A stretch of 40,267 bases of DNA from a virus. Shown piece by piece: positions 1-39,919 of this stretch (its first letter is position 1; every line of letters begins with the position of its first letter). A program made the position numbers and the translations under genes. The stretch covers positions 77,578-117,844 of IMG/VR virus record IMGVR_UViG_3300042352_001190; one strand, written 5' to 3'. The notes below the pieces were generated by a model, which was given only the letters and a program-made list of their open reading frames with translations, ran no database searches and was not told the DNA's origin.

Positions 1-270
1 TTGATTAATTTTTAGATTGGATATACCAAGCTTTTCATGTAATTCTGTATCAAGATGCCACTTTTCTGTAAAGTAGTGATTTACGGCTTTAATTGAAAAC
101 TTGATAAGGTCTTGGCCTTGAAGAGTAATCGACTGTGCAATATCTGTATCGTGAAAATAGAAATATTTGTTACCGAAGGCTCCATAAAACGAGTTAATCA
201 AGATTTTTAGAGCATTTTGCTCAAGATTAAGACGTTTGATCTCTTTGTCTAATTGTTCTTTAGTTTGCAT
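1..270 (-). CDS. 43B: DNA polymerase, C-terminal half (gp43B-like), partial at left edge
   Basis: This is the palm/fingers half of a T4-type family-B DNA polymerase. Only its first 90 residues lie in the window; the frame stays open through base 1. After ATG at 270 and about 16 charged helical residues (TKEQLDKEIKRLNLEQ) comes family-B motif B, read as ALKILINSFYGAFGN, matching KLLINSLYGALGN of T4/RB69 gp43. It is followed by a T4-like stretch with DIAQSITLQGQ. Motif C (YGDTDS) should lie left of the window. The protein starts just before the fingers P-helix, and the piece ending at 38540 stops just after the N-helix. The two therefore look like complementary halves of one enzyme. No intein residues precede the motif. 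The gene upstream (345) is divergent. Function is very likely; activity needs the other half. Confidence 0.9.
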   Translation of the reverse strand, partial: MQTKEQLDKEIKRLNLEQNALKILINSFYGAFGNKYFYFHDTDIAQSITLQGQDLIKFSIKAVNHYFTEKWHLDTELHEKLGISNLKINQ

Positions 271-312
271 ACATAAGTGTTTTACTCGGTTGGTGTTCTT
301 AGTTTAACCTAC

Positions 313-338
313 TAGTATAATACTAATAAATAATAAAA
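313..338 (+). promoter_or_regulatory. Candidate promoter: TATAAT-like box plus late-type AATAAATAA box
   Basis: The gap between divergent genes at 270 and 345 holds the near-palindrome TAGTATAATACTA (313-325), which contains TATAAT. It runs straight into TAATAAATAATAAAA (324-338), which resembles the T4 late box TATAAATA and the boxes before 9166, 14338, 21747, 25518 and 27590. The start codon follows within 7 bases of the box, so a late transcript would be nearly leaderless. The assignment rests on motif similarity only. Confidence 0.45.
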
Positions 339-344
339 ATTAGC

Positions 345-959
345 ATGGCATTGGTAGCACAAGACAGAACCCTATCTAAAGTTTACGCAAATTATCCCTT
401 TTTGCGAAATTTTCCATTCCAGGACTTTCAAATTGAGGCAGAGGAGCTAAAAAGACCCCAATCTGATGACGGGGAGTTTGCTTCGGCACCTTCTTCTATC
501 ACAAACCCATTTGTTATTAACTTTGTCTATACAAGAGAGAAACAAAAGACTGCAATTTCAGTTTTTGATAGAGAATTGGACTGGTTGAGCACTAGAGCTG
601 ATCTAATTACTGAACTAGATGATATTGTTCATATTATAAATGAGTCCTTGCCATCTGGAGACATTATTAAGAAGAGGGATGCTGTACTTGTGATTGAACA
701 TTGGCTCAAAAAGATCGCAGACGATCGTGCCACCCTAAATTATAGTACATTTAATGATATTTTGATGCGCTTGATCGGCGTAACACAGCTCAAGGAGACT
801 GTTCAATTGATAAATAATATTAATAAGCTATCCTCTGGTGCAAATGTAATAAAAATGGATAAAAAGCAATACGATATTATTATGACGTATTATGATTTCC
901 AAATGATTTATTGCAAATTGGTGCTTGGGATAATTATTGCAGCAAAAATATCGCTTTAA
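345..959 (+). CDS. Unrecognised phage protein, 204 aa
   Basis: I do not recognise this protein. It starts with ATG at 345, seven bases after a late-type box, and is the first gene of a plus-strand trio (345, 961, 1227). It is soluble, with mixed charge. Residues 25-31 read FQDFQIE followed by A, fitting the spacing [FY]-x-x-[FY]-x-x-E shared by the capsid-targeting tags in this window. Here the element lies 25 residues in, and the residue three before the would-be cut is Gln rather than Leu/Ile, so a protease site is doubtful. The last 25 residues become hydrophobic (LVLGIIIAA), unlike the rest, and could be a membrane-touching tail. The stop is one base from the ATG of the next gene, implying coupling. 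Confidence 0.7.
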   Translation: MALVAQDRTLSKVYANYPFLRNFPFQDFQIEAEELKRPQSDDGEFASAPSSITNPFVINFVYTREKQKTAISVFDRELDWLSTRADLITELDDIVHIINESLPSGDIIKKRDAVLVIEHWLKKIADDRATLNYSTFNDILMRLIGVTQLKETVQLINNINKLSSGANVIKMDKKQYDIIMTYYDFQMIYCKLVLGIIIAAKISL

Positions 960-1227: not shown

Positions 1228-2009
1228 TGAAGCATATTAAACTATTTGAAAATTTTAGCAGAGAATATCTAAAGACTAATAATAATTCTTTAGTTTCCTT
1301 TTATGCAGATAAGCTTGGAGATTTTTGGTTAGAAAAAGAATTACTTGAAAAACTAGAACAGTTTGAAGCAAGAGTAGATTCGCTTTTTTCAAATGACTGG
1401 AATCTAAATAGAGGCCGTAATCACTACAATGGAGACTTCTTTGCCCTAAATGTAAAAGTTTATAATTACCCAGATGAAGATGAAGTTCAGGCAAAGGTTG
1501 GCATTGAACTTGATGAGGAACGACTTTCTGATATTTGGTATAGATGGTTGCAAGATCAAGCTGAAATGTTTCAAGAAGATATTGAACAGTCTTACGATTG
1601 GGTTGGTCATGTTGGTTGGGGCGGAAATAGCGGCGGATGGCTACACCTTTCACCAGACAATGGCGCAGATAGATTATTAGAATATGCTGAAGAGACTATT
1701 CAAATGTATTTAGATACTAAAGAATGGTATGAAGAAGATGTTATTGCTGATGTAGCAAAGGCAATCAATAGTCCTGAATGGAAACGCCTTGCTGAACTTG
1801 GTTTGGTTGAAGACGAAGATGCAGTAAAAGAAATTACTGATAAATTAACTGAATCTATTAATTGGTTTAAGGCTGAACTTGCTAAACTCAATCAAATCGA
1901 AGAAGATCTTAAAGATATTCAGCGTCAACACAGATCATTTGAACAAAATGCAAAGAAATATTTTCTAGAATTCTTAGAAGAAGAGATTGCAGATGGCCAC
2001 TTAGGTTAG
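1227..2009 (+). CDS. Acidic helical protein with tag-like N-terminus, 260 aa
   Basis: I recognise no domain. The N-terminus MKHIKLFENFSREY has the [FY]-x-x-[FY]-x-x-E spacing (F7, F10, E13) of the capsid-targeting tags. The residues before E13 are Ser-Arg, so an [L/I]-x-E cut is not predicted there; LTE followed by Ser occurs later, in the helical C-terminal half. The middle (about residues 120-150) is rich in Trp and Gly (DWVGHVGWGGNSGG), and the C-terminal 80 residues are very acidic, helical and likely coiled coil. The start overlaps the upstream stop. The TAG stop (2007-2009) interlocks with the uvsW stop on the opposite strand, so the two transcripts converge with no spacer. Confidence 0.75.
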   Translation: MKHIKLFENFSREYLKTNNNSLVSFYADKLGDFWLEKELLEKLEQFEARVDSLFSNDWNLNRGRNHYNGDFFALNVKVYNYPDEDEVQAKVGIELDEERLSDIWYRWLQDQAEMFQEDIEQSYDWVGHVGWGGNSGGWLHLSPDNGADRLLEYAEETIQMYLDTKEWYEEDVIADVAKAINSPEWKRLAELGLVEDEDAVKEITDKLTESINWFKAELAKLNQIEEDLKDIQRQHRSFEQNAKKYFLEFLEEEIADGHLG

Positions 2010-3568
2010 CCTTTAATAAACTTACTTAAATCATAATTGTGCTTAGACACAATCCATTTTTCCTTTTCATAAATTTTCTCACGAACCTTACCGTGTTTTA
2101 CAATATAACCATTTAGATCGTCAATTAGATCATAAATCGTTACTTTGCTTTTTCCAGCCAATTTACGCATGCCACGACCTACTGCTTGGCGAATAGTAAT
2201 TTCAGACTTATAACTTTCTGCAAAAATAATGCTCTGCACATTTTTTAAGTCAATACCAGTTGCAAAGGTTGCATAGCTTGCAACTAGAGTTACGTTAGAA
2301 CCTGCTTCCATTGCATCTTTATATTCAGCTCGGTCATCTCCGCTTACTTCACCATCAATATAGAATGAGTTTGGATTCCACTCAGAAATTCTCTCTTTAA
2401 TTCGTTGACCGTATTTGTCTTTCACATTAATAAAAAGAATTAGGGTATTTCCACCTAGCTTTTTAACTAGTGATGAAATAAAATCTACACGAGGTTCGTA
2501 TGAAATAATAAAATCCTTTTCCATTTGGAACATATTCTTTCCATAGTCTTCAATACGATGGAATTGACTTTTACCGTGTTCCTGCATATATTTGTAGTTT
2601 TGAATAAAAGGCTCGTTCTCTGGATATTTTAGGGAAAGTATCTTAATAAACACGTCTGGCGAGTGTTTGTTTTCAATTAAGAAACTAGATTTAAGAGTCA
2701 TGCTTAGAGGGCCAATGTACTCTTGGATTTTATAGAAATCAGAAAAATCCTCATCGACTTGAATTGTACCAGAAAGTCCTAACTTATATTCAACATTAGT
2801 TGAAGCTAAGAGAATATCTTTAATAGTATCACCTCTTGAAGTATGACACTCATCTACACAAAGCACAGTAAATTTTTTAAAGAAGTCTCCATCGCGTTTA
2901 GCTAAACTTTGATAAGTTGAGATAACTAGATCCGCCTCTTCAAATTTCTTGTCTGAATATTTGTTCTTACCGCCAACTTCTAAAATATTCCAGTTAATTA
3001 GGCCAGTATGATAGTCCTTTACAAATTTTTCTGCAGTTTGACCAACTAATGAAATATTAGGAACTACAATAAGGGCTTTTTTATCTTTACCATTGATAAT
3101 TCCCTTACGCTTAAGAAAGCTTAAATATAAAAATAGGATTAGAGTTTTACCAGCAGAGGTTGCCAATTCCTGTGCACTAAACTTAAATTTAAGAGCACGG
3201 TATGCAGCTTCCATTTGATAATCATATGGAGTAAGATCGACTCCATCTAATAGGACACTTGCAAATTTATCAAGTTGATCCTTTGTAAATTCAAGATTAA
3301 GTAGAGAATCTAATCCATCTAATTCAATCTCATGACCGTAGATTTGACTAAACTGTTTGATTTGATACCATAAACCGACTCCGATTCGATTTTCGCGATC
3401 TATAAACTTATCATAGCCATCCCAAAGACGACGCTGAAATAGTGGACTAAAGTGATAGCCCTTGGCTCTTTTCTTAAAGAAGTTCTTAAGATCGACTACC
3501 TCTTTCTTAAGATCATTATGTATTAATTGAAAATATCTTTTATCTGGTGTTAACTTAAACTTTAGCAA
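2006..3568 (-). CDS. uvsW: UvsW-like recombination DNA helicase
   Basis: In T4, UvsW is a superfamily-2 helicase that unwinds R-loops and branched DNA and drives strand annealing and fork regression. All core motifs are visible: motif I ATSAGKT (residues 136-142; T4 has PTSAGRS), motif II DECH (239-242), motif III SGT (266-268), VASYATFATGIDLKNV before motif VI, and QAVGRGMRK near residue 480. The N-terminal domain also resembles T4 UvsW, including a substrate-loading region with RRLWDGYDKFID. Length 520 aa compares with about 503 in T4. The start is TTG at 3568; an in-frame stop a few codons upstream leaves no ATG option. It is the last gene of a three-gene minus block behind the uvsY-like gene, the T4-style neighbourhood. 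T4 uvsW is a late gene, fitting the late-type box at 4551-4561. Confidence 0.93.
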   Translation of the reverse strand: MLKFKLTPDKRYFQLIHNDLKKEVVDLKNFFKKRAKGYHFSPLFQRRLWDGYDKFIDRENRIGVGLWYQIKQFSQIYGHEIELDGLDSLLNLEFTKDQLDKFASVLLDGVDLTPYDYQMEAAYRALKFKFSAQELATSAGKTLILFLYLSFLKRKGIINGKDKKALIVVPNISLVGQTAEKFVKDYHTGLINWNILEVGGKNKYSDKKFEEADLVISTYQSLAKRDGDFFKKFTVLCVDECHTSRGDTIKDILLASTNVEYKLGLSGTIQVDEDFSDFYKIQEYIGPLSMTLKSSFLIENKHSPDVFIKILSLKYPENEPFIQNYKYMQEHGKSQFHRIEDYGKNMFQMEKDFIISYEPRVDFISSLVKKLGGNTLILFINVKDKYGQRIKERISEWNPNSFYIDGEVSGDDRAEYKDAMEAGSNVTLVASYATFATGIDLKNVQSIIFAESYKSEITIRQAVGRGMRKLAGKSKVTIYDLIDDLNGYIVKHGKVREKIYEKEKWIVSKHNYDLSKFIKG

Positions 3569-4563: not shown

Positions 4564-5094
4564 ATGGAGCAAGTTTTAAATGTCGTAGATTTTGATGAAA
4601 CCTTATTTAGGGTTCCCCCATTTACCCACGCCGGTACTGAGTTTACAAAACCTTACGAGTGGTTTGATAATCCAAAGTCTCTAAACACCAATTTATACAG
4701 ATTACAGCTAATTGAGTCTGTTTTTAATAAACTTGACAAAAACCATACGACTATTATCTTAAGTCACCGGGTTGAGGCAACCAGAAAAGCAATGGCTGCA
4801 GTTTTAGATAAGTTTGGAATTACCAAAACATTTGATCAAATTATCCTTTGCGAGCGTAATACAGATAAACCACAAATGTTACTTGAATATTTGGATAAAG
4901 TTGGTCCTAATTTTGATAAAATCAGAATATTTGAAGACTCTCTTGTTCAAATAGACCGATATGTTAAAAATCCCTATTTAAGTAAGATCACCAATTCAAT
5001 TGAATATTGGTTTGTTGATAAGACCGAATTACTCCAAATTGACGGAAATATTGGTATATTAACAAGAGAAAGAATACAACTTAAATACTCATGA
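4564..5094 (+). CDS. HAD-superfamily phosphatase
   Basis: HAD hydrolases remove phosphate through an aspartyl-phosphate intermediate. Motif I is VVDFDETLF (nucleophile D9, general acid D11, then T13), motif II the Ser of TTIILSHR, motif III a Lys in the NTDKPQ region, and motif IV the acidic pair in RIFEDS. The short cap and the LSHR segment resemble HAD domains of nucleic-acid repair proteins, including the 3'-phosphatase domain of T4 polynucleotide kinase. Substrate cannot be read from sequence. The TGA stop overlaps the ATG of the P-loop kinase by four bases (ATGA at 5091-5094). Phosphatase and kinase are therefore co-translated as separate chains, where T4 Pnkp has one. A role in nucleotide or end healing is inferred from this context. 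Confidence 0.8.
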   Translation: MEQVLNVVDFDETLFRVPPFTHAGTEFTKPYEWFDNPKSLNTNLYRLQLIESVFNKLDKNHTTIILSHRVEATRKAMAAVLDKFGITKTFDQIILCERNTDKPQMLLEYLDKVGPNFDKIRIFEDSLVQIDRYVKNPYLSKITNSIEYWFVDKTELLQIDGNIGILTRERIQLKYS

Positions 5095-5690
5095 TAATCT
5101 TTATTGAAGGCACACGTCACTCTGGCAAAACCTATTTGCTAAATCAATTAATTAAAAAACACGGTGCTGAATTAAATCTATTTTATTATAAATTTTACCT
5201 AGCTGATGAATATTCAGCAATTGTTAAAGAATGGGATAAATCCGATTCAGGCATTCACTATTTTAGTATGGGTAATATTATGACAATCTTAGATCTACAC
5301 GAACATTTTCCAGAAAAGATTTTTGTATTTGATCGAGCTCATATTACAGCTGCTACTTGGGCAACCATTTGGAATCGATTAGAATTTAATCAAGCCCAAT
5401 CTGAATTATATGGTTTAATTAAACGCCCAGGCTATCAAAATTGCAAAACTGTCATGATTGATGCACCAGATGAATTTAAACAGGACCAGGCTCGTAAAAA
5501 AGATTTATGGGATGGTCTAGTTTCAGCAAAAGAAGAAAAGCTACTTATGACTAAACTTATTGAATCTGCTCCATTTAGATTCAAAGATGGTCGCGAAGGT
5601 AATTCATTTGATCAATTTACAAATAATTTTACGCCAGACTCAGTTGATGAGTTCTGTGATCTAATACAAAAATTGGTTCGGGATAAATAA
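5091..5690 (+). CDS. P-loop kinase (nucleotide or polynucleotide kinase-like)
   Basis: This is a 199-residue P-loop NTPase. Walker A is GTRHSGKT (residues 7-14), directly after strand MIIFIE. A DRAH motif following strand KIFVF resembles the DR[YFH] element of deoxynucleoside and thymidylate kinases, and a basic region QDQARKK could serve as a lid. Polynucleotide 5'-kinases of the T4 Pnkp type share this size and fold, so the substrate may be a mononucleotide or a nucleic-acid 5' end. It overlaps the HAD phosphatase by four bases and is followed, after one small gene, by a ligase-containing giant protein. That context favours an end-repair role. The family assignment is firm, the substrate is not. 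Confidence 0.75.
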   Translation: MIIFIEGTRHSGKTYLLNQLIKKHGAELNLFYYKFYLADEYSAIVKEWDKSDSGIHYFSMGNIMTILDLHEHFPEKIFVFDRAHITAATWATIWNRLEFNQAQSELYGLIKRPGYQNCKTVMIDAPDEFKQDQARKKDLWDGLVSAKEEKLLMTKLIESAPFRFKDGREGNSFDQFTNNFTPDSVDEFCDLIQKLVRDK

Positions 5691-5711
5691 TCAGAAATAG
5701 GCAACTATAAA

Positions 5712-6212
5712 ATGACAAAACGTATTATTGGAGACTTTAGCCAGTTCCTAAACGAGGCAGAAGAATCAGCACCACTTAAAGGATTACCTTTTCAAGAGCT
5801 TATGGATCAGTTGGTTAAATTAACAGATCTTACATCAGATAGTTTAAGCATCGGAACCCCAGCTGATATCTATGGTCACTCAACTTCATATAAAACAGAT
5901 CTTTCTGAGGTTCAAGCTAGATTAGCTGATGTTGACCACTACTATGCAACAAAAATGAAGCAAGAAGTTAGATTCTTTTGTTGGAATATCAATTGGAAAG
6001 ATTACTCTTCAGGTAGAGAGCTTGAAAAGAAGCTTCCTGAAGGAACTATCCAGGCATATCAAAATATCGATTTAGCAAAACTTATTACCTATTTTGAAGA
6101 AAATCCAGAAGATGCTGGTTTGTTAAAAGGAATTAACCTTAGCGTTTCTTCAAAAGCTGGACAAGAGTTTGCGAAAGATATGGGAGCAGGAAAATACGGA
6201 TCTTTAGACTAA
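5712..6212 (+). CDS. Capsid-targeted small protein of unknown function, 166 aa
   Basis: The N-terminus MTKRIIGDFSQFLNEAEE carries a T4 internal-protein-like capsid-targeting sequence. F9-x-x-F12-L13-N14-E15 is followed by Ala, and cleavage after E15 would fit the [L/I]-x-E rule of gp21 proteases. T4 internal proteins begin similarly with Y-Q-E-F-I-x-E-A. The rest is soluble and helical, with no recognised domain. A Trp/Cys-rich stretch (RFFCWNINWKDYS) falls near residue 100. The gene lies between the kinase and the ligase fusion on one transcript, raising the possibility that part of the cassette is packaged. An A-rich leader precedes ATG 5712. The targeting inference is good; the mature function is unknown. 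Confidence 0.75.
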   Translation: MTKRIIGDFSQFLNEAEESAPLKGLPFQELMDQLVKLTDLTSDSLSIGTPADIYGHSTSYKTDLSEVQARLADVDHYYATKMKQEVRFFCWNINWKDYSSGRELEKKLPEGTIQAYQNIDLAKLITYFEENPEDAGLLKGINLSVSSKAGQEFAKDMGAGKYGSLD

Positions 6213-6228
6213 TAACAATTTAAATTTT

Positions 6229-9123
6229 ATGGCAGGATTAAACCACTTAAAAGACATTTACGAAAAGAAGGGCAAAGAATTTTTAGAAGCTCTTCTTAAT
6301 AAAGAAGTTATCGTTAACGAAAAAATGGACGGTGCATTTTTTGGTGCACAAAGAAACTGCGGAAACTCAGAAGAACCATTTGACTTTTTTAAACGTAATA
6401 CTAAATTAACTGGAGTTGATCGTGTCCTAAGTTCATACTATAATCCAGCACTTAAACATTTTGATGAGTTATCATCAGAAGTAACTGAAAAACTTCCATG
6501 TAACTATCACTTTGGGATGGAATATTTCAGTTCCCCAACTGCTCAATCAATCCAATATGATAGACTACCAAAAAATCACTTAATCTTAAGCTATATCCAT
6601 ATATTGGACGAAGCTGGCGAACAGGCTGAAACTATTCAAGATAAAGCAGATTTGGACAAGTGGGCAGATATTTTAGATATTGAGCGCCCTCCAATTATTT
6701 TTCAAGGAAAACTAACAGACGATCAAAAAGAGAAAATTTTAGATTTTGTCTATACTCCACTTGATGAATTAGTTGGAAAATTTAAGACTGCATCATTTAC
6801 AAAATACATTATTAATGTCTTAAATCCTGAACTTAAAACCTCTTTTTTAAGAGATACTGCAGATAAAGATATTGAAGGAATTGTATTTAGATTTTATGAG
6901 CCAGGCGGAGAAGATTCAGTATTTTTGGCAAAGTTAGTGGACCCAGTTTTCCAAGCAAGAGCAAAAGAAAAGGCTCAAGCTAGAGTTGAGGCACCAAAGA
7001 CTGATGATTATATTTGGATCATGACTGCAGACCTAATGAATTTTATTGAAACCTATTCACAAGCAGATCTTGATGCAATTAAACCAAATGGTACAACATT
7101 TGAAAGACGTTATATTCAAATTATAAATGCAATTTTTAAAGATTTTGTTCAAGAACATGGTAGCAAATATCGCGGACTTGAAATTACAACACCAGAATTC
7201 CTAAATAAGCCAGAATTTGACGTTAACCGAGCATTAATTAGTGATGATATGGTTATCAACCTAATTGATTCTGATAAAACTCTTAAAGAACTCTATCGAG
7301 TTTTCTTAAATACTTTTAGAAAAAAGAATATTAGAGTTAGCTCAACATTTTTCAATAAAACTATGAAAGAAACTCTAAAGTCCCAAATTGCTAAGGTTCA
7401 ACTTGCAGCAGAGGACAAATTAAATGAAGCGTTCTTCCCTACCTTTAATCAATTTTTTGGAACAGATGAAGATGCAACTGATTTTTTCAGTCAATTTCAA
7501 ACTGACCAAAATAAAAAAAAAGATATTGAGGTAGTTGTCTATTTAGACAAATTTCAGCCATTAAGTAAAGAACACGAAAAGGTTGCCTCAAGTATCAAGG
7601 GAAAATACGATGTGCCTTGTTTAATGATTGCATATCACCCAGGTCAAAGAAGTTCAGCCTTTCCAATGTCACCAGAAACTGTTAAAAGTTCAATTGATAG
7701 GTTAACTAAAACTTCAGACTATGTAGTTGGTGGAGGAACAACTGATTCAATCGGAATAGATGAATTAATTAAGTCAGCTGGACAGGGATATTCAATTAAA
7801 GCAATTGCAACAAATTCTGAGTTTGTGCCAGATTTAGTAATCGATCTTAACCGAATTAACAAAAAAGCTCCATATGCAAAAATACCATCTCAACTTAGAG
7901 TGGTGGAGGTTCCTAAAATCGAATTAGAAAGCGATCTTATTAATTCAGTTAAAAACCAAGATTTTGTTCAATATAAAAATCTAACAAGTAAACCTTTACA
8001 TTCAGAGTTTTATAATATGACAAAGGAGATTGAAGAATCCCTTTTAAATGAATCAATATCAGCTGCAGATTTGGATAAAAGAAAAACTGATTTGCTTGAT
8101 TTGATTATTGATGCTCCATACAATGAAGTTCTTTATAAAAAGATTGAAAAGCTTTTAAAGAGAACGCATAATGATTTAACTAAGGATTTGTTTGATATTC
8201 TTAGCAAAACTAAAGGTTATAAAGATTTAGCAAAAACTATTGTTTCAATTGCTGATGATTTAGATCAAGATGATGAACTCCTTGCATATCTAGAAAATCC
8301 AACTGTTACGTTTGAAGATGTTATAAAATCGCCAAATGGTAATCTAAAAACCCTATTTAATACAACTGGCCTTAGCACAGAACTATATGATCAATTATTC
8401 AATTTAATTGGCTCAGTTGGTAGTGTAAATATTGGTCGTGGAGAAATTTTAATGTCAATCCTAATTAAAGATGCAATAAATGCAGATAATAAAACTAAAG
8501 GCGACGTTAAAATTGGATCAGACTCTATTGAAATTAAATCAAGTGGAGATAATTTTAGATTAACTGGTCAAAGTGGTACTGGAATGGGAGCCGATACTGG
8601 AAACTATATTAGAAAAGGTCTATCTGACCTATTTACTGCAGCCAAGCAGGAAGTACCAGAATATTTTGAAAATTCTACGGCATTTGCGCCATCAGCATCA
8701 GCAAATCCACGAAAGGAATATTTTAGCCAAGGAATCACAGCAGCAGTTCAGGCATCAAATAAAGCCGAGGTTGTTGAAATTTTAGCTTCTGGTTTTAATT
8801 TAATTTACAAAAACTATAAAGAAGAACTGGTTTCAGTTTTTAATGCTGCAGTTGCCGAAGATGGCGCATTCAATAATAGAGCATATTTAGATGGTGTTCT
8901 AAAGATTGAATTTGACCGTTATTTACAAGATGGCACATATTTTATGGCTGTAAGTAAGCACACTGGCGACTATGTCTTGATTAATGGAAAGATTACAGAT
9001 GATCAGCTTAAATACTTTAAAGTTGAGCAAGCTAATAATATTAGACCTAAATCAACTTCTTCTGACTCTCTATTGGGAATCGATATTAATATGGATTCTT
9101 TCTCTACAGCTCCTCAAGAATAA
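6229..9123 (+). CDS. Ligase / nucleotidyltransferase / nuclease-like fusion, 964 aa
   Basis: Three modules can be seen. Residues 1-245 look like a covalent nucleotidyltransferase of the RNA/DNA ligase superfamily: motif I EKMDG with nucleophile K32, motif III FGMEYF (E98), motif IV DIEGIVFRF (E216) and motif V FLAKLVDP (K235). Residues about 433-590 resemble an HxGH-type adenylyl/cytidylyltransferase, but the signature is degenerate: DKFQPLSKEH (440-449) where family members have GRFQPxHxGH. Residues about 730-800 fit a PD-(D/E)xK nuclease core: GRGE (E739), KGDV (D759) and IEIK (E768, K770). LNE sites followed by Ala or Ser lie in both inter-domain linkers (E400, E608). Upstream genes encode a phosphatase and a kinase, so an end-healing and sealing pathway is plausible. 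Ligase is the surest part, the middle domain the least. Confidence 0.75.
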   Translation: MAGLNHLKDIYEKKGKEFLEALLNKEVIVNEKMDGAFFGAQRNCGNSEEPFDFFKRNTKLTGVDRVLSSYYNPALKHFDELSSEVTEKLPCNYHFGMEYFSSPTAQSIQYDRLPKNHLILSYIHILDEAGEQAETIQDKADLDKWADILDIERPPIIFQGKLTDDQKEKILDFVYTPLDELVGKFKTASFTKYIINVLNPELKTSFLRDTADKDIEGIVFRFYEPGGEDSVFLAKLVDPVFQARAKEKAQARVEAPKTDDYIWIMTADLMNFIETYSQADLDAIKPNGTTFERRYIQIINAIFKDFVQEHGSKYRGLEITTPEFLNKPEFDVNRALISDDMVINLIDSDKTLKELYRVFLNTFRKKNIRVSSTFFNKTMKETLKSQIAKVQLAAEDKLNEAFFPTFNQFFGTDEDATDFFSQFQTDQNKKKDIEVVVYLDKFQPLSKEHEKVASSIKGKYDVPCLMIAYHPGQRSSAFPMSPETVKSSIDRLTKTSDYVVGGGTTDSIGIDELIKSAGQGYSIKAIATNSEFVPDLVIDLNRINKKAPYAKIPSQLRVVEVPKIELESDLINSVKNQDFVQYKNLTSKPLHSEFYNMTKEIEESLLNESISAADLDKRKTDLLDLIIDAPYNEVLYKKIEKLLKRTHNDLTKDLFDILSKTKGYKDLAKTIVSIADDLDQDDELLAYLENPTVTFEDVIKSPNGNLKTLFNTTGLSTELYDQLFNLIGSVGSVNIGRGEILMSILIKDAINADNKTKGDVKIGSDSIEIKSSGDNFRLTGQSGTGMGADTGNYIRKGLSDLFTAAKQEVPEYFENSTAFAPSASANPRKEYFSQGITAAVQASNKAEVVEILASGFNLIYKNYKEELVSVFNAAVAEDGAFNNRAYLDGVLKIEFDRYLQDGTYFMAVSKHTGDYVLINGKITDDQLKYFKVEQANNIRPKSTSSDSLLGIDINMDSFSTAPQE

Positions 9124-9137
9124 GTCTAGACTCGCTC

Positions 9138-9150
9138 GAATAAATATCTT
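9138..9150 (+). promoter_or_regulatory. Candidate late promoter box
   Basis: GAATAAATATCTT lies just after the stop of the ligase fusion and 16 bases before the GTG of the 59-residue gene. It matches the AATAAATA form of the late-type boxes at 324-338 and 27561-27577. It would start the late run of small head-type genes. Confidence 0.4.
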
Positions 9151-9165
9151 AAAAGGGCGAAACTT

Positions 9166-11374: not shown

Positions 11375-11375
11375 A

Positions 11376-11729: not shown

Positions 11730-11759
11730 ACCAAAAACAAAAATAAAATAATTTTAATT

Positions 11760-11978: not shown

Positions 11979-11981
11979 TTA

Positions 11982-27560: not shown

Positions 27561-27577
27561 GAATAAATAAACAAAAA
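27561..27577 (+). promoter_or_regulatory. Candidate late promoter for the tail tube gene
   Basis: GAATAAATAAACAAAAA lies 12-29 bases before ATG 27590 in the short gap after the preceding gene. It is the AATAAATAA late-type box seen elsewhere, and the tube protein is expected to need strong late transcription. Confidence 0.5.
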
Positions 27578-27589
27578 GGTCCAATATAA

Positions 27590-28180: not shown

Positions 28181-28200
28181 AAATTTAAAACCAAAGCCAA

Positions 28201-32224: not shown

Positions 32225-32730
32225 TCTTCTTTAGGTTTAGGTAAGTTAATTATTTGATCTGGTAAAATTTCAGTCGTTGCAACCACTTGCCAAGTTTTTA
32301 TAGATTCATTCCATTCAACATCGGCATTTGGAAAGTCTGCTACTGTATACAGAGAAACAAACCCAGTCAAAAAGTCCATCCAATGGAACTCATTTAATTT
32401 TCCAATAACTTCTTCACTTTGAGTAAGATTTTCTAAATCTTCTTGAGAAACAAGTTCACCCGACTCTAAAAGTTCTTTTCTTTTAGCAGAGACTATTTCC
32501 TCTAATGTAGAGTTTAGTTTTTGAATTTTTACTGGATTGGGTTTAAGACAGTTTGCAAATGCACGAGATATTTTAAATATCATTGCACCCTCTACTAGAT
32601 TTACGTCATGGGCACAAACTGTTTCAATCGGTTCCCCTTGAAGAATTCGACTTGTTGCAATCGCACGAGGAAAACCGTCGGTTGTATTTAGTTCAAATTT
32701 AACCTTATTTGAAAGTCCTATATTAAGCAT
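32221..32730 (-). CDS. Possible SET-domain-like protein between genes 47 and 46
   Basis: The sequence has the outline of a SET lysine methyltransferase core. An opening GFPRAIATSRILQGEPIETV resembles the G-x-G ... I-x-x-G-E-x-I entry. Near the end, SLYTVADFPNADVEW is in the place of the L-x-N-H-S-x-x-P-N motif, followed by TWQVVATTEILPDQIINL. The catalytic-type N-H-S is not preserved, so the protein may be inactive or only share the fold. I chose ATG 32730, which overlaps the gp47 stop; a longer ATG start at 32766 would overlap gp47 by 44 bases. Lying between 47 and 46 suggests a link to the nuclease complex. The fold is tentative. Confidence 0.5.
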   Translation of the reverse strand: MLNIGLSNKVKFELNTTDGFPRAIATSRILQGEPIETVCAHDVNLVEGAMIFKISRAFANCLKPNPVKIQKLNSTLEEIVSAKRKELLESGELVSQEDLENLTQSEEVIGKLNEFHWMDFLTGFVSLYTVADFPNADVEWNESIKTWQVVATTEILPDQIINLPKPKEE

Positions 32731-33844
32731 AATCTTTCTCTTGTTTTGCTCTCTCCTGTATTTCAAAGAATTTAGTAACTAGATCCTTTTTCATACTTTG
32801 AGTGTATTGTTTTGAATTTAAATATGTTTTAAAGATCTCAAATGCATCAAATTTATCTGAACTTGATAGATCTAGAGAAATTTCAGTTGGTGTAGTATCA
32901 GACGAATCGCTAGTGTATGTAAAAAATTCAACCTTTCTATACTTAACTTGTTCTAAAACAGTTAAGAACTGGCTGATTGGAATCTTATTGGATAGATTAA
33001 TTTCAATCATAACATCAACAAAATTATTAGTCAAAAGAGAAGTTAACTGATTAAGATTCATATCTAATAATTCGCAGATATCGTATTTGACATAATTTGG
33101 TGATGTCTGGTTCTCTATAAAGGTTTCTTTAAAGTTATCTTTAGCATCTATTATGTAATAACCCTTAGTGTTCCCACGATCACCCCTGTCCATCTGGTAA
33201 GGAGTTCCAGTATACAATATATTATCTTGTTCTTGCCTATGATGGATGTGACCAGAGTAAACCCTATCATACTGGGATAGTGCAGTAATCTCTAATCCAT
33301 GCTCAACTTTAGTCCATCTATTAAACTTAAGGCCTTTAATATCTGCATGGCAAACAATACGCTTACACATACCTGCATAATCTGCAACATAACTACCTAA
33401 AGTTTTGGTGTCTTCAACCCAAGGAAGCATTAACCAATTTTCAGTATCGTTTATAGTTAAGATTTCTGGGCTCTCAAACACATGAATATTTTCAGAAAGG
33501 TGTTTTAGGTGTCTAACTGAATTAACTTGGTTAGAATCTTTATAATAAACATCATGGTTTCCTAAAATAATGAAAATACCTCTTTTAAATACCTTAGAAA
33601 GTTTTTCAAAAATTTCCATTGAATCGTTTTGAATACGAACATTAATAGATTCTCTGGAATGAAAAATATCTCCTTCTAAAATAAGGATATCTGTTTCTGG
33701 ATTAAACCCATTTTCTTGAGCAGTCTTAGGCAAAACCTCCAAAAGAAATTCTTTTTGGATATCTGCCCACTCTACTGAATTATTTCTAATTCCTAAGTGT
33801 AAATCTCCTACTAAAAATATTTTGTTTATATTGTTTAACTTCAT
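32723..33844 (-). CDS. 47: Recombination nuclease subunit gp47 (Mre11-like)
   Basis: gp47 is the metallophosphoesterase nuclease partner of gp46. The five phosphoesterase motifs are visible: VGDLHLG (D14, H16), LEGDIFH, ILGNHDVYY, VCHADIKG, and YSGHIHHRQ. The order and spacing match Mre11/SbcD. Length 373 aa compares with about 339 in T4. The C-terminal 100 residues should carry the gp46-binding region. ATG 33844 overlaps the stop of the preceding gene (TAATG), and its own stop overlaps the next start, so the 47 / SET-like / 46 trio is translationally coupled. Confidence 0.94.
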   Translation of the reverse strand: MKLNNINKIFLVGDLHLGIRNNSVEWADIQKEFLLEVLPKTAQENGFNPETDILILEGDIFHSRESINVRIQNDSMEIFEKLSKVFKRGIFIILGNHDVYYKDSNQVNSVRHLKHLSENIHVFESPEILTINDTENWLMLPWVEDTKTLGSYVADYAGMCKRIVCHADIKGLKFNRWTKVEHGLEITALSQYDRVYSGHIHHRQEQDNILYTGTPYQMDRGDRGNTKGYYIIDAKDNFKETFIENQTSPNYVKYDICELLDMNLNQLTSLLTNNFVDVMIEINLSNKIPISQFLTVLEQVKYRKVEFFTYTSDSSDTTPTEISLDLSSSDKFDAFEIFKTYLNSKQYTQSMKKDLVTKFFEIQERAKQEKDYA

Positions 33845-34530: not shown

Positions 34531-36018
34531 TTATAAATCTCCTAAAATATCTTCATGTTCACCAAACGTTTTGATACTAGGAGCAACTGTCAACTGTGGT
34601 TTAACTTGGACATTTGCATATTGTTGACGCAAATCATCTTCAATTGAAGAAATATCGTCGTCATCAGAGTAGTATTCGCTTGCTGGATCAGTTTCTTCTA
34701 CAAGTCTAGAAAAATCATAGAACATTCGATACATTTTAAAGCTTTCTGTGTAGCCTTCATCACGGTTAGCAATAACCTTGATTTTAATTCTTTTTTCCAT
34801 TGGACCTCTCATCAATCCATAGAGAGAGTCAACTGTGTGAACCAGACCAAATGATTCAGCAATATCTGACATTCCAATATCTTGATCATCAACCGCATCA
34901 CGTTTAATTTGGGTTGCAGTAATAATAGTCCATTCATTTCGTTGAGCAACTGCACGCAATTCTTCAGAAATTACTTTAATCTTTTCATAAGTATTTCCTT
35001 GCTCACGCATAGGTCTCATCAAGTTAATATAGTCAACCACTACAACTTGTAATCGTTTGCCTGTACTCTCTTGAACTTTTAAGAAATAGTTTTCGATATC
35101 AACTGCAGTTGCACTACCTGTTGCAAACTCCTTAACCCAAAGTTCTCCTGGCTGAGATCCACTTTGCTTAAACTGTTCGATCTTTGCTTCAATTAATTGA
35201 GTTCGATCAGTTGAGGTAATTTCATTGTATTGATTATATGGGATATTTAAGATGTTTGATCCTAAACGTTTCATGTATTTAGTATCAGCTAATTCAAGTG
35301 TTGCAACGCCAGTTTGACAACCTGACATAAATGCTCGAGCTGCAATATTTGAAAGAACCATCGACTTACCTACTTTAGGACGACCTTGGAAAACAACTAA
35401 TGTTTTTGGGTTCCATCCACCGCCTAGGGTTTTATCAAAGAATGGAAATCCAGTTGGAGTACCAGTTTTAGAAACCTGAACGTGATCGACTGCATTAAAG
35501 AAGTTTAGACCTGATTCAGCATTACTAAAAGATACATTTAGGTTTGTATTTAATTTAGTTCTTACCTGATCCGTAATAATATTAACGTTCTCTGGACTAA
35601 TTTCAGTAGTCTTTAAGAAAGATAAAATATCAATAATTGAAGAGTTAAGATTCTTAATTAAGATAAAAGACTTTGTGTATTTAGTTAAAAACTCGTAATT
35701 GTATTCTCCTAGATTTACACCAAGCAAAGTATTAAAACTATCATCTGAAATTTCATAACCAGTTAAGTTAAGCATCTCACGAATTTCAGTTTTAGATGGA
35801 ACTTTATGATATTCCTTATAGTAGTTTTTTACAACTTTAAAGATATTACCAAGATCATCGTTATTAAAGTATTGAGTCTTCATTTTAGGAATTACTTCCC
35901 TTATGTCTAGCGCCTCCACATTCTTTGGACGAATCAGGGTCTCATTATTATCATCCATTAGAATAAAGTTAAGAATAACTTTCTCTAGTAACTCAATGTT
36001 TTCTTTAAAGTCTATCAT
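34531..36018 (-). CDS. 41: Replicative DNA helicase (gp41/DnaB-like)
   Basis: This is the hexameric 5'-3' helicase at the replication fork. Walker A is GRPKVGKS (212-219), after TLVVFQ. Walker B is VVVDYINLM. The RecA-type core continues with an Arg/Gln element (ITATQIKRDAVDDQDIGMSD) matching DnaB motif 4 (QLSR-like), then KIKVIANRDEG. The N-terminal 190 residues are helical, as in gp41/DnaB N-domains. Length 495 aa is near T4 gp41 (475). The C-terminal 50 residues are acidic and probably flexible. The downstream neighbour is the acidic 223-residue protein. Partners such as the gp61 primase are not seen in the window. Confidence 0.93.
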   Translation of the reverse strand: MIDFKENIELLEKVILNFILMDDNNETLIRPKNVEALDIREVIPKMKTQYFNNDDLGNIFKVVKNYYKEYHKVPSKTEIREMLNLTGYEISDDSFNTLLGVNLGEYNYEFLTKYTKSFILIKNLNSSIIDILSFLKTTEISPENVNIITDQVRTKLNTNLNVSFSNAESGLNFFNAVDHVQVSKTGTPTGFPFFDKTLGGGWNPKTLVVFQGRPKVGKSMVLSNIAARAFMSGCQTGVATLELADTKYMKRLGSNILNIPYNQYNEITSTDRTQLIEAKIEQFKQSGSQPGELWVKEFATGSATAVDIENYFLKVQESTGKRLQVVVVDYINLMRPMREQGNTYEKIKVISEELRAVAQRNEWTIITATQIKRDAVDDQDIGMSDIAESFGLVHTVDSLYGLMRGPMEKRIKIKVIANRDEGYTESFKMYRMFYDFSRLVEETDPASEYYSDDDDISSIEDDLRQQYANVQVKPQLTVAPSIKTFGEHEDILGDL

Positions 36019-36023: not shown

Positions 36024-36368
36024 TTAGTTATACAGTTCGTTAAATACTGCTTGGTTAATATACAAAAATTCTCCTTTTTTAAGCAGAGTTTCTGCATCCA
36101 TTAATTTTTTAATTACAATTCTGAGTTTATCCTTAAATCCAGGAGTTACCTCATTTTCATTAAATACGTACTTAAGAGTTTTTGCAGAAAATTTCAATTC
36201 AGAAGGATTAAATTCTTTATTTTTTATTTCGCAAACCTTAATAATATATTGAATAATATCAACTACGAAATCGGTTTCCGTAGGATAACTTGGTAGCACC
36301 CTATGTAAACCTAATTCGTACTTAATTGGTAACTCTGGCTTAAGTTTATAATTAATCTTCTGATCCAT
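36024..36368 (-). CDS. Small unrecognised protein between uvsX and gene 41, 114 aa
   Basis: The protein is helical and basic with a winged-helix-like feel: helices LPSYPTETDFVVDIIQYIIK and VTPGFKDKLRIVIKKLMDAE, then a short wing KKGEFLYINQAVF. ATG 36368 overlaps the last 17 bases of uvsX; a TTG one codon earlier is less likely. It lies five bases before the gp41 helicase gene, so it could be a helicase or recombinase accessory (loader-like) protein. It does not resemble T4 gp59 in length or sequence as far as I can tell. Confidence 0.65.
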   Translation of the reverse strand: MDQKINYKLKPELPIKYELGLHRVLPSYPTETDFVVDIIQYIIKVCEIKNKEFNPSELKFSAKTLKYVFNENEVTPGFKDKLRIVIKKLMDAETLLKKGEFLYINQAVFNELYN

Positions 36369-37545
36369 CAAATTCAGTCATTTCGTTTAATTCATCTGTT
36401 TCCATATCATCAATACCATCCTGAGTTTCAGGGAACTTAAAGGTCGGTTTGATAATTTTTTCATCCAATTCTTTTAGGACCTCATCAGTAAAGAGTCTTG
36501 ATGAGAAGAATTCCTTAACTGGAACAGCATCACCGTTATGACGAACGATATAAGATTTGCCGAGCTTTTTAGGATAGAAATAAACCTGCTCTCCATTTAA
36601 CTGAAATGGCGATAGTATTTCCTGCTCGTCAGCTTTCATTTTTTCAAATTCCTTTTGTGTTACAATAACACCACGACCAACTCCGCAAGTTTCCCAACTT
36701 ACATATTGTTCCAATCCAACAAATGGATTCATACCTTTATGGAATGAAATATGGAATTCAATATCAAGAGGGCGAGCTAAACGATTCTTTTTGGTTTTAC
36801 TACGAACAATAATACCAGTAGTCGTTTTGTTTTCATCACGAAGAGTTCCTTTGCTTAACATTAAGATAATTGAAGCAGAGAATTCTGGACCACCTCCACC
36901 TGACATTCCTTTTGGAGTGTATTGGTCCATTGATGCATAGGTGTGGTTTGTAAAAATAAATGGAACTTTGTGATTTGAAAGGTCTAGCGTTAGAGATTTA
37001 AATAAGGATCTCATCTCTTTTGCACGAAGACCCATATCCGCTGCATTTTTACCCTTGTCCATGTCAGTTTTACTTTTATCAGTATCTAACATTCCAACAG
37101 AGTCAACGAATAGTGCAATTTTAAGACCTGGATTTTCTTTGATTGTATCAATTAGGTCATTAACGAAGAATTTTACTTCACTAATAAGACCCATACGCAA
37201 GTACTTAAGTTTAGTTAAGTCTACACCAAATTTTACATAGTCTGAAGAGTCAATTGCACCCTCAGTATCAATGTAAAATACCATGTAATCTTTTTTCTGT
37301 AACTCACGAACAGCGTTTAAACATAAGAAGGTTTTACCTGCTCCTGAATCTCCAGCGATTCCAATACTTCTTGTGTTTGGATATCCACCAAATAGAGAGC
37401 CTGACATTTGGGCGTTTAGTAGATAATTTCCGGTTGGAATATACTCCTCAATATCGGAGAAGCCACGAATTTCAATTTTAGATTTTACTTTCTTTTCAAG
37501 TAAATCATTAAACTTTGCGAATGCATCTAATGTAGATTTTGCCAT
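36352..37545 (-). CDS. uvsX: RecA-like recombinase UvsX
   Basis: UvsX forms filaments on single-stranded DNA and performs strand invasion. Walker A is GDSGAGKT (65-72), preceded by RSIGIA. The catalytic Glu region is VFYIDTEGAID, and Walker B is IALFVDSVGML. The FTNHTYASM block matches RecA motif 3 (TNQ-type). Length 397 aa is close to T4 UvsX (391). The acidic C-terminus (MTEFDGSED) is common in phage recombinases. In the leader, AAAGGA appears about 12 bases before ATG 37545, one of the few ribosome-site-like sequences seen. It is part of the operon running from 43A to the terminator. Confidence 0.94.
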   Translation of the reverse strand: MAKSTLDAFAKFNDLLEKKVKSKIEIRGFSDIEEYIPTGNYLLNAQMSGSLFGGYPNTRSIGIAGDSGAGKTFLCLNAVRELQKKDYMVFYIDTEGAIDSSDYVKFGVDLTKLKYLRMGLISEVKFFVNDLIDTIKENPGLKIALFVDSVGMLDTDKSKTDMDKGKNAADMGLRAKEMRSLFKSLTLDLSNHKVPFIFTNHTYASMDQYTPKGMSGGGGPEFSASIILMLSKGTLRDENKTTTGIIVRSKTKKNRLARPLDIEFHISFHKGMNPFVGLEQYVSWETCGVGRGVIVTQKEFEKMKADEQEILSPFQLNGEQVYFYPKKLGKSYIVRHNGDAVPVKEFFSSRLFTDEVLKELDEKIIKPTFKFPETQDGIDDMETDELNEMTEFDGSED

Positions 37546-37599
37546 AAATATTTAATCCTTTTGTTATACCCTCTTTTACACAGCAGGGGATAAAGGATC

Positions 37600-37950
37600 T
37601 TAGGCAAAGTATGATATAGTTAGGAAGCTAGCCGCAAGTAATTTTGAGTTTGAGTATTCGCCTTGCATTACTTTATAGAAAGGAACTCTGGTTAAATCTG
37701 AGTCGTGTTTTAGCCCGCTAATATTAACAGCGAAACAAATATCCTTATCTATTTTTCCTAATTTAAATATTCTAGATTGTTCTAAGTCTTCTACCCCAAG
37801 CTCTTGATACATGCGTTTGATTGCAGAAAAGCTTGATGCATCTTTAGCATGATCGATTTTTATTGTAACTGGTTCACCATCTGGTGTACAGTAAATTGCT
37901 CGTAATTTTTCTGAGTCAGAAACTTCAATTGGTAAAATAATTAGCTCCAC
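37600..37950 (-). CDS. Unrecognised protein, 116 aa, upstream of uvsX
   Basis: This is a small alpha/beta protein with an opening strand MELIILPIEVSD, then LRAIYCTPDGEPVTIKID, and a hydrophobic C-terminal helix KLLAASFLTISYFA. No motif is recognised. Its GTG start at 37950 shares one base with the TAG stop of the gene before it (TAGTG), so the two are coupled. It sits in the replication operon between the linker protein and uvsX; the 54-base gap to uvsX holds no clear promoter. A replication accessory role is possible but unsupported by motif. Confidence 0.62.
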   Translation of the reverse strand: MELIILPIEVSDSEKLRAIYCTPDGEPVTIKIDHAKDASSFSAIKRMYQELGVEDLEQSRIFKLGKIDKDICFAVNISGLKHDSDLTRVPFYKVMQGEYSNSKLLAASFLTISYFA

Positions 37951-38540
37951 TATTTAGAATCAAGTTTTTTCAGCAAGGCATCTTTAATATGATCTGCTGT
38001 TATTTGATTATTTATATGGTTTGCTAATTCTGTTAAAAATTCTGATTTGTTCTGTGAGCTCTTGTACATCATCTTCAATAGGTTAATTGAAGGAAGATTT
38101 ACTCTTAAATTTAAGTTTAGGAGAGACTCTTCAGTTGCAAACATCTCAAAAATGCCTGCAGATTTTGGATTTGGTTGAATTACTACTTGAGCCGGAGCAG
38201 CCTGTGGCGTTTCTTGAACTGGAGCAGGTTTAGTTTGATCTATAACTGGGCCTCTAATTGACATACATTCAGCTTTAGTTAAAGGATCTTGTCCATCCAT
38301 AATTGCCATTAGTTTAGTATTAAGTTCATCTAAACTTACACTAGAACCATCTGCTAATTTAACAGCCATTAGGCCACCTCTACTAAATACATCAACTACT
38401 CTAGTAACTGTTGAAATTTTAGTATCATCTGGGGTATTTACCCATTGGTAATCTTTGCCCATAATGAAATCTCTAGTTTGGGCAAGTGCATCAATATCGT
38501 ACATATATTTGTTTATTTTGTTTTTTAACCATTTTATCAT
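37950..38540 (-). CDS. Two-domain linker protein coupled to the polymerase N-half, 196 aa
   Basis: No family is recognised. Residues 1-95 include a basic start (WLKNKINKYM) and a small beta-domain (STVTRVVDVFSRGGLMAVKL). Residues 100-125 are a Pro/Ala/Gln linker (PAPVQETPQAAPAQVV). Residues 130-196 are a helical domain with LLNLNLRVNLPSINLLKMMY. ATG 38540 overlaps the stop of the polymerase N-half (TAATG), the tightest possible coupling. A flexible two-domain protein directly behind a split polymerase could help hold the polymerase or connect it to partners; this is speculation from position. Confidence 0.62.
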   Translation of the reverse strand: MIKWLKNKINKYMYDIDALAQTRDFIMGKDYQWVNTPDDTKISTVTRVVDVFSRGGLMAVKLADGSSVSLDELNTKLMAIMDGQDPLTKAECMSIRGPVIDQTKPAPVQETPQAAPAQVVIQPNPKSAGIFEMFATEESLLNLNLRVNLPSINLLKMMYKSSQNKSEFLTELANHINNQITADHIKDALLKKLDSK

Positions 38541-39919
38541 TAGTTTGCTGCTTTTTTCGCTGCTTGTTTTAATTCGGTAATATGACCTTTAATATTCATA
38601 CGGCGGTCATACATGTTCTTTAAGATAACTCGAGCGGCTGAATCTTTTTTCTTAGTAAAAAGAGTACCATTTTTTGTATAGACTTCATCTTCTTTAAGAA
38701 CATGGCCGGGTTTCATTTTACCTAGATAGGTATCTGGGGAAATATTAAATTGGATCTGAACGTTAGGGTACATTGAAGAGAAGTCAAAGCATGAAACATA
38801 CTTATGGTGACCTGGAATTGGCTTACTTACATAAGCACCTTCATATGTTACCTGTTCAGCCAAATCGCGTTTATCTGAAGCCATTTTCTTGCCATCACGT
38901 AAAAAGTGGCGACACATTAGGGATTCAGTAATAAACACTGCGCTAAAGACTTTTGATACATCAACTTGTGCAGTTTTAGAAATTGCAAACGCAACTTCAA
39001 GAAGACTTAATTTGTCTTCGATTAATTTAACAAGCATAACGTCAATTGCGTTATACTTTACGAAGTTTTCAACATCTTGTTGAGCTTCCATCATTGAACC
39101 ATAATCATGATGTAATTTACTTACTCCAAGTACAAGTTGAGAAATATAGTCGAGTTTGTAATTTTCAACAACTTTAATTGGCTTAAGGTTTGTAAATACT
39201 TCAAGGTAATCGAGCAAACCTAAGTGGACTGGTGATTGACCTTTGCCGATTAACTTGTCACAAACCATAGATTCCATAGGTTTGATATTAAGGCGTTTAC
39301 AACGATTAATTAAGTATTTCCAGTCGAATTCAATTACGTTCCAGCCAGTAATAAAAGGAAGTTTAGGAAGTATTCTATGAAAAAAGGTTGCCATTAAGTC
39401 TTCTTCTTTTTCAAAGAACATATACTTAATAGTAAATACTTGACCTTGTGCACTTAAATACTCATTGATTTCAGATTCCATTTTAGAAATAGCTGCATCA
39501 TCGAGCTTTTTCATAGTAGACAAAATGTAGGTCACATTATCTGGACCACAAAATGAAATAAGGTTTACTGGCATTGCAGCTTTAGCTGGATCAGGAAACT
39601 CGTTTGAAGTTAACTGAATCTCGATATCGAGAAAGTATTTCTTAGGATTATGATCAGAATAGATTTGAGCAAGCTCTTCTTCAGAAAAACGGGTCTGAAT
39701 CAACTCTTCAATTCGGAATCGACTTAACCATTTACTTTTGCTTTTATCAACAAACTTATTATCCCAATTTCGATACTCTGAGGGGCGACCTGTGAGCTTC
39801 CAATTAAATTGATCAGCATCATGAATATGCTTTACTGCGTATGCAACATTACCGGCTTCATCATAATATGAAACTACTAGTTTAGAATCGTCTTGTTTAA
39901 ATTCAGAGCTTATTATCAT
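38540..39919 (-). CDS. 43A: DNA polymerase, N-terminal half with 3'-5' exonuclease (gp43A-like)
   Basis: This is the N-terminal and exonuclease part of a T4-type family-B polymerase. Exo I is FLDIE (D98, E100), Exo II GWNVIEFD (N194, D199) and Exo III KYNAID (Y289, D293). Polymerase motif A is CFDFSSMYPN with D379. The chain stops at residue 459, just after MYDRRMNIKGHITEL, which matches the fingers N-helix of RB69 (QRKEHKGYMLAA). Motifs B and C are absent. The frame starting at 270 on the same strand supplies motif B. The TAA stop overlaps the next ATG (TAATG), so this is a settled gene end, not a sequencing frameshift. The proofreading half could be active alone; polymerisation requires the other half. 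Confidence 0.93.
   Translation of the reverse strand: MIISSEFKQDDSKLVVSYYDEAGNVAYAVKHIHDADQFNWKLTGRPSEYRNWDNKFVDKSKSKWLSRFRIEELIQTRFSEEELAQIYSDHNPKKYFLDIEIQLTSNEFPDPAKAAMPVNLISFCGPDNVTYILSTMKKLDDAAISKMESEINEYLSAQGQVFTIKYMFFEKEEDLMATFFHRILPKLPFITGWNVIEFDWKYLINRCKRLNIKPMESMVCDKLIGKGQSPVHLGLLDYLEVFTNLKPIKVVENYKLDYISQLVLGVSKLHHDYGSMMEAQQDVENFVKYNAIDVMLVKLIEDKLSLLEVAFAISKTAQVDVSKVFSAVFITESLMCRHFLRDGKKMASDKRDLAEQVTYEGAYVSKPIPGHHKYVSCFDFSSMYPNVQIQFNISPDTYLGKMKPGHVLKEDEVYTKNGTLFTKKKDSAARVILKNMYDRRMNIKGHITELKQAAKKAAN

Follow-up and report, generated by a model that had tools for sequence, protein, structure and literature searches.

The viral DNA analyzed here is a stretch of 40,267 nucleotides (the window; G000:C1:77578-117844 within a virus record of 117,844 bp, IMGVR_UViG_3300042352_001190). 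It carries a family-B DNA polymerase (PolB) in two pieces, with 38,270 bp between the stop of the N-terminal piece (N-half) and the start of the C-terminal piece (C-half). The replicative family-B polymerase of this phage is very probably a heterodimer of two separately encoded chains whose palm is assembled in trans; the association of the chains and their activity are what we infer from the evidence below. The elements that define the break are as follows.

38540..39919, minus strand: N-half of the family-B DNA polymerase, 459 amino acids, with Exo I-III and motif A, ending just past the fingers N-helix
38538..38542, minus strand: N break edge, where the TAA stop of the N-half overlaps the ATG of the next gene (TAATG), without intein or spacer
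1..270, minus strand: first 90 codons of the C-half, with the fingers P-helix and motif B; the rest lies left of base 1
271..344, no strand: C break edge, short intergenic DNA with the C-half (minus) on one side and a divergent plus-strand gene (345-959) on the other

Both frames had been proposed in an earlier note on this DNA, and both hold. The open reading frame (ORF) at 39919-38540 (minus) matches PF03104 and positions 30-147 of PF00136, and it ends after the fingers N-helix; its translation terminates in ...ITELKQAAKKAAN-stop. The frame running from 270 (minus) opens before the P-helix with the N-terminus MQTKEQLDKEIKRLNLEQNALKILINSFYG, and its start lies 25 residues ahead of the N of motif B; the 90-residue piece within the window matches PF00136 at positions 144-206. 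This frame stays open past base 1, giving a C-half of 476 amino acids in total (L002:12418-13848, minus, equal to G000:C1:76417-77847). The left flank supplies motif C (YTDTDS), which the earlier note proposed to look for beyond base 1, together with KKKY and the thumb. PF00136 has exactly two matches in the virus record, the N-half and the C-half; the record itself is probably incomplete. The E-values, the fit of the N-half to the RB69 gp43 fold (Z 29.5) and ratios of nonsynonymous to synonymous substitution rates (dN/dS) of 0.033-0.047 establish that the split is not a chance match.

The break opens the tip of the fingers

Does each half retain its share of the catalytic apparatus? Across 22 N-halves, D98/E100, N194/D199 and Y289/D293 of Exo I-III are invariant, as is D379..YP385 of motif A. 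Motif B (K22..NSxYG), motif C (YxDTDS) and KKxY are in the C-half and are invariant across 15 such sequences. Because the two chains divide motifs A and C between them, neither should be able to hold a polymerase site by itself, judging from the RB69 enzyme.

Alignment to RB69 gp43 places the N-half on residues 100-490 and the C-half profile on 553-789. The N-half model (mean predicted local distance difference test score (pLDDT) 87.7) superimposes on RB69 gp43 residues 4-501 (Z 29.5, 432 residues, root-mean-square deviation (rmsd) 4.3). The thumb of the C-half model superimposes on residues 734-895 (Z 16.2, 155 residues, rmsd 2.6), and the palm part was placed (553-789) by sequence only. The last element of the N-half model is a helix (428-458), and the first element of the C-half model is another (4-27); according to these models, they are the two helices of the fingers hairpin, and the break is the hairpin tip. 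Alignment to T4 gp43 puts the break at the same fingers turn in the window, Aeromonas phage 44RR, Acinetobacter phage Apostate and Agrobacterium phage Atu_ph07, although the chain ends of several rows scatter there, making single residue numbers unreliable. In the same alignment, the intact polymerase of S-PM2 has a similarly short fingers turn.

The first start codon lies 21-48 residues ahead of motif B in 118 of the 122 C ORFs with a readable motif B (repeats included). In LR756501 (L066:4770-6470), the N-terminal extension of the C-half is longer than this, at about 90 residues ahead of motif B.

The arrangement recurs in independent records

The halves are found near two borders of the window's record, a metagenome contig, as might be seen if an intact gene had been broken and its parts displaced by mis-assembly. 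Other records argue otherwise. G001 (216,815 bp; N-half 95% identical) has the N-half at 140057-141430 and the C-half at 179705-181132, both on the plus strand, with a gap of 38.3 kb. In four records of about 271 kb (G002-G005; N-half 63% identical) the gap is about 43 kb, and in G004 and G005 the pair spans the record ends, as circular permutation predicts. A 254-kb contig from another collection, in a Bacteroidetes metagenome-assembled genome (MAG), has the halves about 38 kb apart. We found the C-half in 26 of 30 further large contigs, and in all 26 it was on the same strand and downstream of the N-half, 10.5-67 kb off; in the other four contigs, the sequence remaining on that side amounts to 44.4, 46.3, 42.7 and 3.5 kb. 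Order and strand thus recur, as does a gap of 38-48 kb, in independent contigs, the four records of about 271 kb and the MAG contig, and the same break is present in the cultured phages PAU, PTm1, pT24 and MA9V-2. These records refute an assembly artefact, the possibility that the earlier note had named as a threat to its reading. The 254-kb contig (L256, CAIWBA010000291.1), which represents a relative of the window phage, comes from a MAG labelled as an uncultured Bacteroidetes bacterium, a weak hint at the host given that binning can err.

An alignment search with N-halves matched at least 598 stretches, 358 of them encoding relatives; the best 80 loci, all of at least 32% identity, were kept. 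In every one of these best 80 of 358, the N frame stops after the fingers helix. Among 239 loci (repeats included) there were 114 complete ORFs with an N part, of which 105 have 450-519 amino acids and one has 300-309; the intact outgroup (L029-L036) contributes eight ORFs of 831-837 amino acids at 26-29% identity.

We read the break directly in LR756500 (462 kb), in LR745206, LR756504, LR756502 and LR756501 (635-735 kb), and in Lak-B2, Lak-C1, MA9V-2, PAU, PTm1 and pT24; match positions in other Lak records and MA9V-1 agree with the same break. At 13 short-gap loci, the halves are 1.0-5.1 kb apart in the order N then C on one strand. The C-half is about 10 kb upstream of the N-half in Lak-B2 and about 10 kb downstream in LR756500; Lak-C1 and four LR records carry the two genes on opposite strands, at least 100 kb apart. 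Searches of six whole phage records returned N and C pieces only, save for a 38-position match below the cut-off in LR756502. The break point that the earlier note proposed to seek in other phage genomes is thus found throughout one clade, with a gap that is not constant and ranges from 1 kb to >100 kb.

Splicing at the break and at motif C

Inspection of the N and C chain ends and models disclosed no intein sequence at either edge of the fingers break, in agreement with the earlier note. The N-half ends with its own helix and an overlapping stop, and the C-half starts 25 residues before motif B, so there is no room for an intein. Rfam gave 0 RNA matches over 56,268 bases (window plus left flank), and no introns were found there. 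These results weigh heavily against the idea that the halves are rejoined into one chain through a split intein or RNA trans-splicing. That idea has a precedent in the PolB of Nanoarchaeum equitans, which is rejoined by an intein (PMC4104785), and it draws on split inteins that interrupt the C-half at motif C in relatives of the window phage. We consider rejoining at the fingers break highly improbable, with an unfamiliar kind of trans-splicing as the slight chance that remains.

The second cut of the C-half, at motif C, is made by a split intein in LR756500, Lak-B2, Lak-C1, the phage of locus L116 and PTm1. What separates the intein parts varies: an endonuclease-like gene in LR756500, a gene annotated as a VSR endonuclease in PTm1, an ORF with no Pfam match in Lak-C1 and nothing in the L116 phage. 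In such relatives, the polymerase occupies three genes, two of which are expected to be joined by protein splicing. Split inteins between DTD and S of motif C were located at L058:26712-30112, L068:4881-8188, L069:4313-8077, L177:93-1836 and L265:12390-15196.

Both halves are under selection and diverge together

The dN/dS values cited above come from three pairs per half (dS >1 in two of the six pairs) and indicate purifying selection on both halves. Over 35 genomes, N and C distances correlate with r 0.955, compared to a maximum of 0.189 in 2000 permutations. The window's record and nine relatives contain PF00136 only as N and C pieces (10 of 10 records). No second intact gp43 was present in the window's own (incomplete) record or in the nine relatives, in line with the earlier note, and intact PolB was likewise absent from the nearest full-size relatives. 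PolA (PF00476) was found in 0 of the 10 records.

A split Pol III was tried as the real replicase and rejected: PF07733 yielded a single below-cut-off match in 10 records (G023, E 0.008), and PF17657 had no match in six records.

These data also bear on whether the halves could work apart, the N-half as a free exonuclease, for example, while another polymerase copies the genome. The N-half alone has an exonuclease domain that is predicted to be complete and is well modeled, as such a role would demand. However, each half retains its own polymerase motifs (A in the N-half, B and C in the C-half), N and C diverge together, and the phage records searched have no PolA, no second PolB and no Pol III above the cut-off. 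Separate functions are therefore very unlikely, though copying by a host polymerase would be compatible with these data.

Several points count against the two-chain replicase. The window's record is incomplete. The AlphaFold 2 (AF2) model of the C-half is only fair (mean pLDDT 66.6, 15 sequences), its fingers and palm part being weak, and long outgroup branches leave the exact number of independent fractures unsure. In the AF2 model of the N-half, confidence is lowest at 352-363 and 377-380, in the surroundings of motif A. Weak palm regions in both models could fit a missing partner chain; the shallow alignments (22 N rows, 15 C rows) could explain them equally well. A Foldseek search with the C-half was also weak (best E 7e-4, template modeling (TM) score 0.28), and only the thumb aligned well.

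The halves of the split gp43 of Aeromonas phage 25 have been reported to co-purify and to be active (PMC2988022). That reported activity, taken with the present data, makes a working two-chain replicase the likeliest reading. The earlier note held that the chains must associate non-covalently; this is indeed the best inference, but "must" is too strong.

Origin of the break

In the N tree (48 rows), 39 split rows fall on one branch with support of 100/100, and the fewest changes between intact and split states is three. The C tree (43 rows, with Apostate) has 33 split rows on one branch (100/100) and needs at least four changes. When PAU, PTm1 and pT24 were added and XacN1 was removed, 42 split rows grouped together (100/98), with two changes. 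The split clade comprises the window phage, the Lak megaphages, phages of 462-735 kb, Sphingomonas phage PAU, and Tenacibaculum and Chryseobacterium phages. The 44RR and Apostate polymerases group with intact T4, apart from the window's clade, and do not share descent with its fracture; T4-like phages broke the polymerase gene separately at the same place. The earlier note had mentioned split gp43 in a few T4-like phages, and the Aeromonas cases are real, but the state is common to a large clade and is not special to this phage.

Atu_ph07 (L245:2156-5125) has a PolB split at the fingers with the halves 18 bp apart. In trees that include both, it groups with the intact XacN1, and Atu_ph07 probably, though not certainly, had a fracture of its own. 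The fingers tip was thus opened at least twice, and probably three or more times. These counts should be read with the sampling in mind. A quick tree of 73 rows was made up of references and 56 N ORFs, the latter left from 93 after clustering at 90% identity; for the careful 48-row tree, 25 rows were dropped by hand after the quick tree had been viewed, four with a known gap among them. The programs gave long-branch warnings for MA9V, XacN1, SenALZ1, Atu_ph07, PAU and pT24.

Several kinds of endonuclease gene occur at the break edges. LR756500 has an endonuclease-like gene, with DUF7487 and a weak match to MTES_1575, that overlaps the N end by 4 bp. Related matches were seen in Lak-C1 (152 bp past N), in L215 and L226 (71 bp ahead of C) and in G037 (about 110 bp ahead of C). 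L114 has an HNH match 66 bp past N, MA9V-2 has a TnpB 87 bp ahead of C, and in Apostate MobE precedes 43B by 59 bp. Endonuclease queries taken only from phage-collection records gave nine hits in 180 IMG/VR loci, and five of these are no more than 1.5 kb from a break edge, where random placing predicts 0.73 (P 0.00027). Some limits apply to this test: the queries had themselves come to notice at breaks, two of the five near hits belong to related phages (L215 and L226), and the hit in L214 could not score, its locus lacking a complete half.

An endonuclease origin of the fingers break is plausible. The converse view concerns origin only: the fracture arose by other means, and endonuclease genes arrived later at an open site. 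Most loci, including the window's, have no endonuclease match at the break (none was found at either edge in the window), ordinary genes lie between the halves in short-gap phages, and for the Aeromonas phages the question is equally open (PMC2988022). The occurrence of several endonuclease kinds at break edges in separate branches speaks against late arrival, to which we give somewhat less than an even chance.

Genomic context and relocation of the C-half

The genes around and between the halves in the window are as follows.

39949..40233, minus strand: dUTPase-like gene, upstream of the N-half
37950..38540, minus strand: gene of 196 amino acids directly after the N-half, without a family match
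36352..37545, minus strand: UvsX-like recombinase, sharing the N-half operon
34531..36018, minus strand: DnaB-type replicative helicase
32723..33844, minus strand: gp47/SbcD-like nuclease subunit
30560..32224, minus strand: gp46/SbcC-like subunit
29672..30550, minus strand: thymidylate synthase
4564..28779, plus strand: opposite-strand block between the halves, with late genes in it
23756-25288, plus strand: major head protein, in the late block
21642-23738, plus strand: head protease, in the late block
19947-20750, plus strand: baseplate gene, in the late block
2006..3568, minus strand: UvsW-like helicase

The operon order is N, two small genes, UvsX, a small gene, DnaB, a small gene, gp47, a small gene and gp46. 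A primase-like gene directly follows the C-half in the left flank. Farther along the window's record, left of the C-half operon, is a ClpA/B-like ATPase gene (named by eye; L002:2238-4229). Judging from gene strands, the halves belong to different transcription units, with the C-half heading its own. The earlier note's description of halves about 38 kb apart, with the late region and the replication operon between them, is therefore accurate: head and baseplate genes lie there, along with the UvsX, DnaB-type helicase and gp47/gp46-like genes. PHROG matches were obtained for four of the nine plus-strand-block proteins scanned, one of the four being to a family of unknown function.

Short-gap relatives have both halves within one replication operon. 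The order in L115 is N, a gene of 250 amino acids, C, UvsX, a small gene, DnaB helicase, a small gene, gp47 and gp46. Reductase-like genes (named by eye) are inserted after N in L139, L120, L130, L134 and L147, and the group with gaps of 10-21 kb has further genes between these and the 250-residue gene that precedes C. In the window's group, the replication operon with N is kept, and the C-half is 38 kb off, past the opposite-strand late block and directly before primase. A single, steadily growing gap was considered and rejected: the gene order shows insertion in the 10-21-kb group versus relocation of C in the window's group. PAU, PTm1, pT24 and MA9V (gaps of 1.2-3.5 kb) branch first within the clade in the tree with 42 split rows, which makes a short gap the likelier ancestral state; the order in which the subclades arose is only partly supported.

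The gene of about 250 amino acids directly before the C-half in short-gap phages (L115:3271-4035, L120:14721-15470, L139:13641-14396) invited a guess, from its size and place, that it encodes a sliding clamp. PHROGs, Pfam and PDB sequences did not support this candidate, and hhalign against gp45 of T4 and 44RR returned a probability of 0.4%. Its profile was found in one of seven records searched (G029) and not in the window's record.

Discussion

In the proposed enzyme, the N-chain would supply the exonuclease for proofreading, the palm's motif-A side and the fingers N-helix. The C-chain would supply the fingers P-helix and its motif B, the palm's motif-C side and the thumb. The aspartates that bind metal would be shared out, those of motif A on one chain and those of motif C on the other. 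With the cut in the turn of the fingers hairpin, the chains would need no covalent bond to pack as they do in the intact enzyme. In the jumbo-phage clade, the fracture is old and, on the trees, of single origin, perhaps at a homing-endonuclease insertion. The halves would at first have shared one replication operon. Insertions would then have widened the gap along certain branches, and in the window's own branch the C-half would have moved to a separate unit beside primase.

A bolder proposal holds that the separation is a control device, not a relic. The N-chain would be made from the replication operon and the C-chain from its own promoter beside primase, setting the timing and amount of replicase, and surplus N-chain would serve as a free 3'-5' exonuclease. 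We regard this as unlikely. If it were true, this clade would have exchanged a one-chain replicase for a regulated enzyme of two subunits, with an active site that comes into being only when they assemble.

Split family-B polymerases were already known as local cases in some T4-like phages and in archaea. The T4-like Aeromonas phages 44RR and 25 and Acinetobacter phage Apostate (gp43A/gp43B) have the same enzyme with the same fingers-tip break and no intein described; unlike in the window, the halves are adjacent in 44RR (50 bp) and 3.0 kb apart in Apostate, with MobE between them. Tenacibaculum phages PTm1/pT24, Sphingomonas phage PAU and Chryseobacterium phages MA9V-1/2 share the clade and break of the window phage, but with the shorter gaps given above. 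PTm1 also differs in the intein cut at motif C, and its depositors named one piece an intein-containing split polymerase precursor. The Lak megaphages and the 462-735-kb LR records again share clade and break, with separate halves in rearranged order and strand; Lak and LR756500 differ from the window in the extra split intein in C. Among archaea, Methanobacteriales PolB3 and N. equitans have family-B enzymes in two genes, non-adjacent in N. equitans, where, unlike in the phages, the halves belong to a cell and are trans-spliced by the intein (PMC4104785).

Other reports come close. The moraphages, freshwater jumbo phages of 200-307 kb, have two core DNA-directed DNA polymerase VOGs (27 and 25 genomes), listed beside dUTPase, uvsW, ClpA and primase; the word "split" does not occur in that article (PMC12619734), and the two VOGs may be the two halves. 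In group 2.2 jumbo phages, Pol III alpha is encoded by two distant genes, but that polymerase belongs to another family than the window's (PMC7824862). Both MA9V-1 halves have been tabulated as polymerases (PMC10537231), polymerase genes of Jug phages are described as split by endonuclease sequences (PMC12363816), and split polymerases in OM43 phages (PMC10580990) and a PolB with a split intein in phage MIJ3 (PMC6892783) are on record. In the available portions of the open-access PMC literature, including PMC8346664, PMC2993671, PMC9123017 and PMC8228797, we found no description of the fracture as a clade-wide feature.

Here, the split is the settled condition of a broad lineage of jumbo phages, some of the largest phages among them, with halves free to drift between operons. 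PHROGs has separate N-only and C-only polymerase families, and marker-gene work accordingly counts one enzyme as two. Cultured members, PAU foremost, make the two-chain reading testable. With gaps from 1 kb to >100 kb, the clade offers a natural series for examining what lets an essential enzyme tolerate being cut through its active site, how stoichiometry is kept when the genes are unlinked and how gene fractures start.

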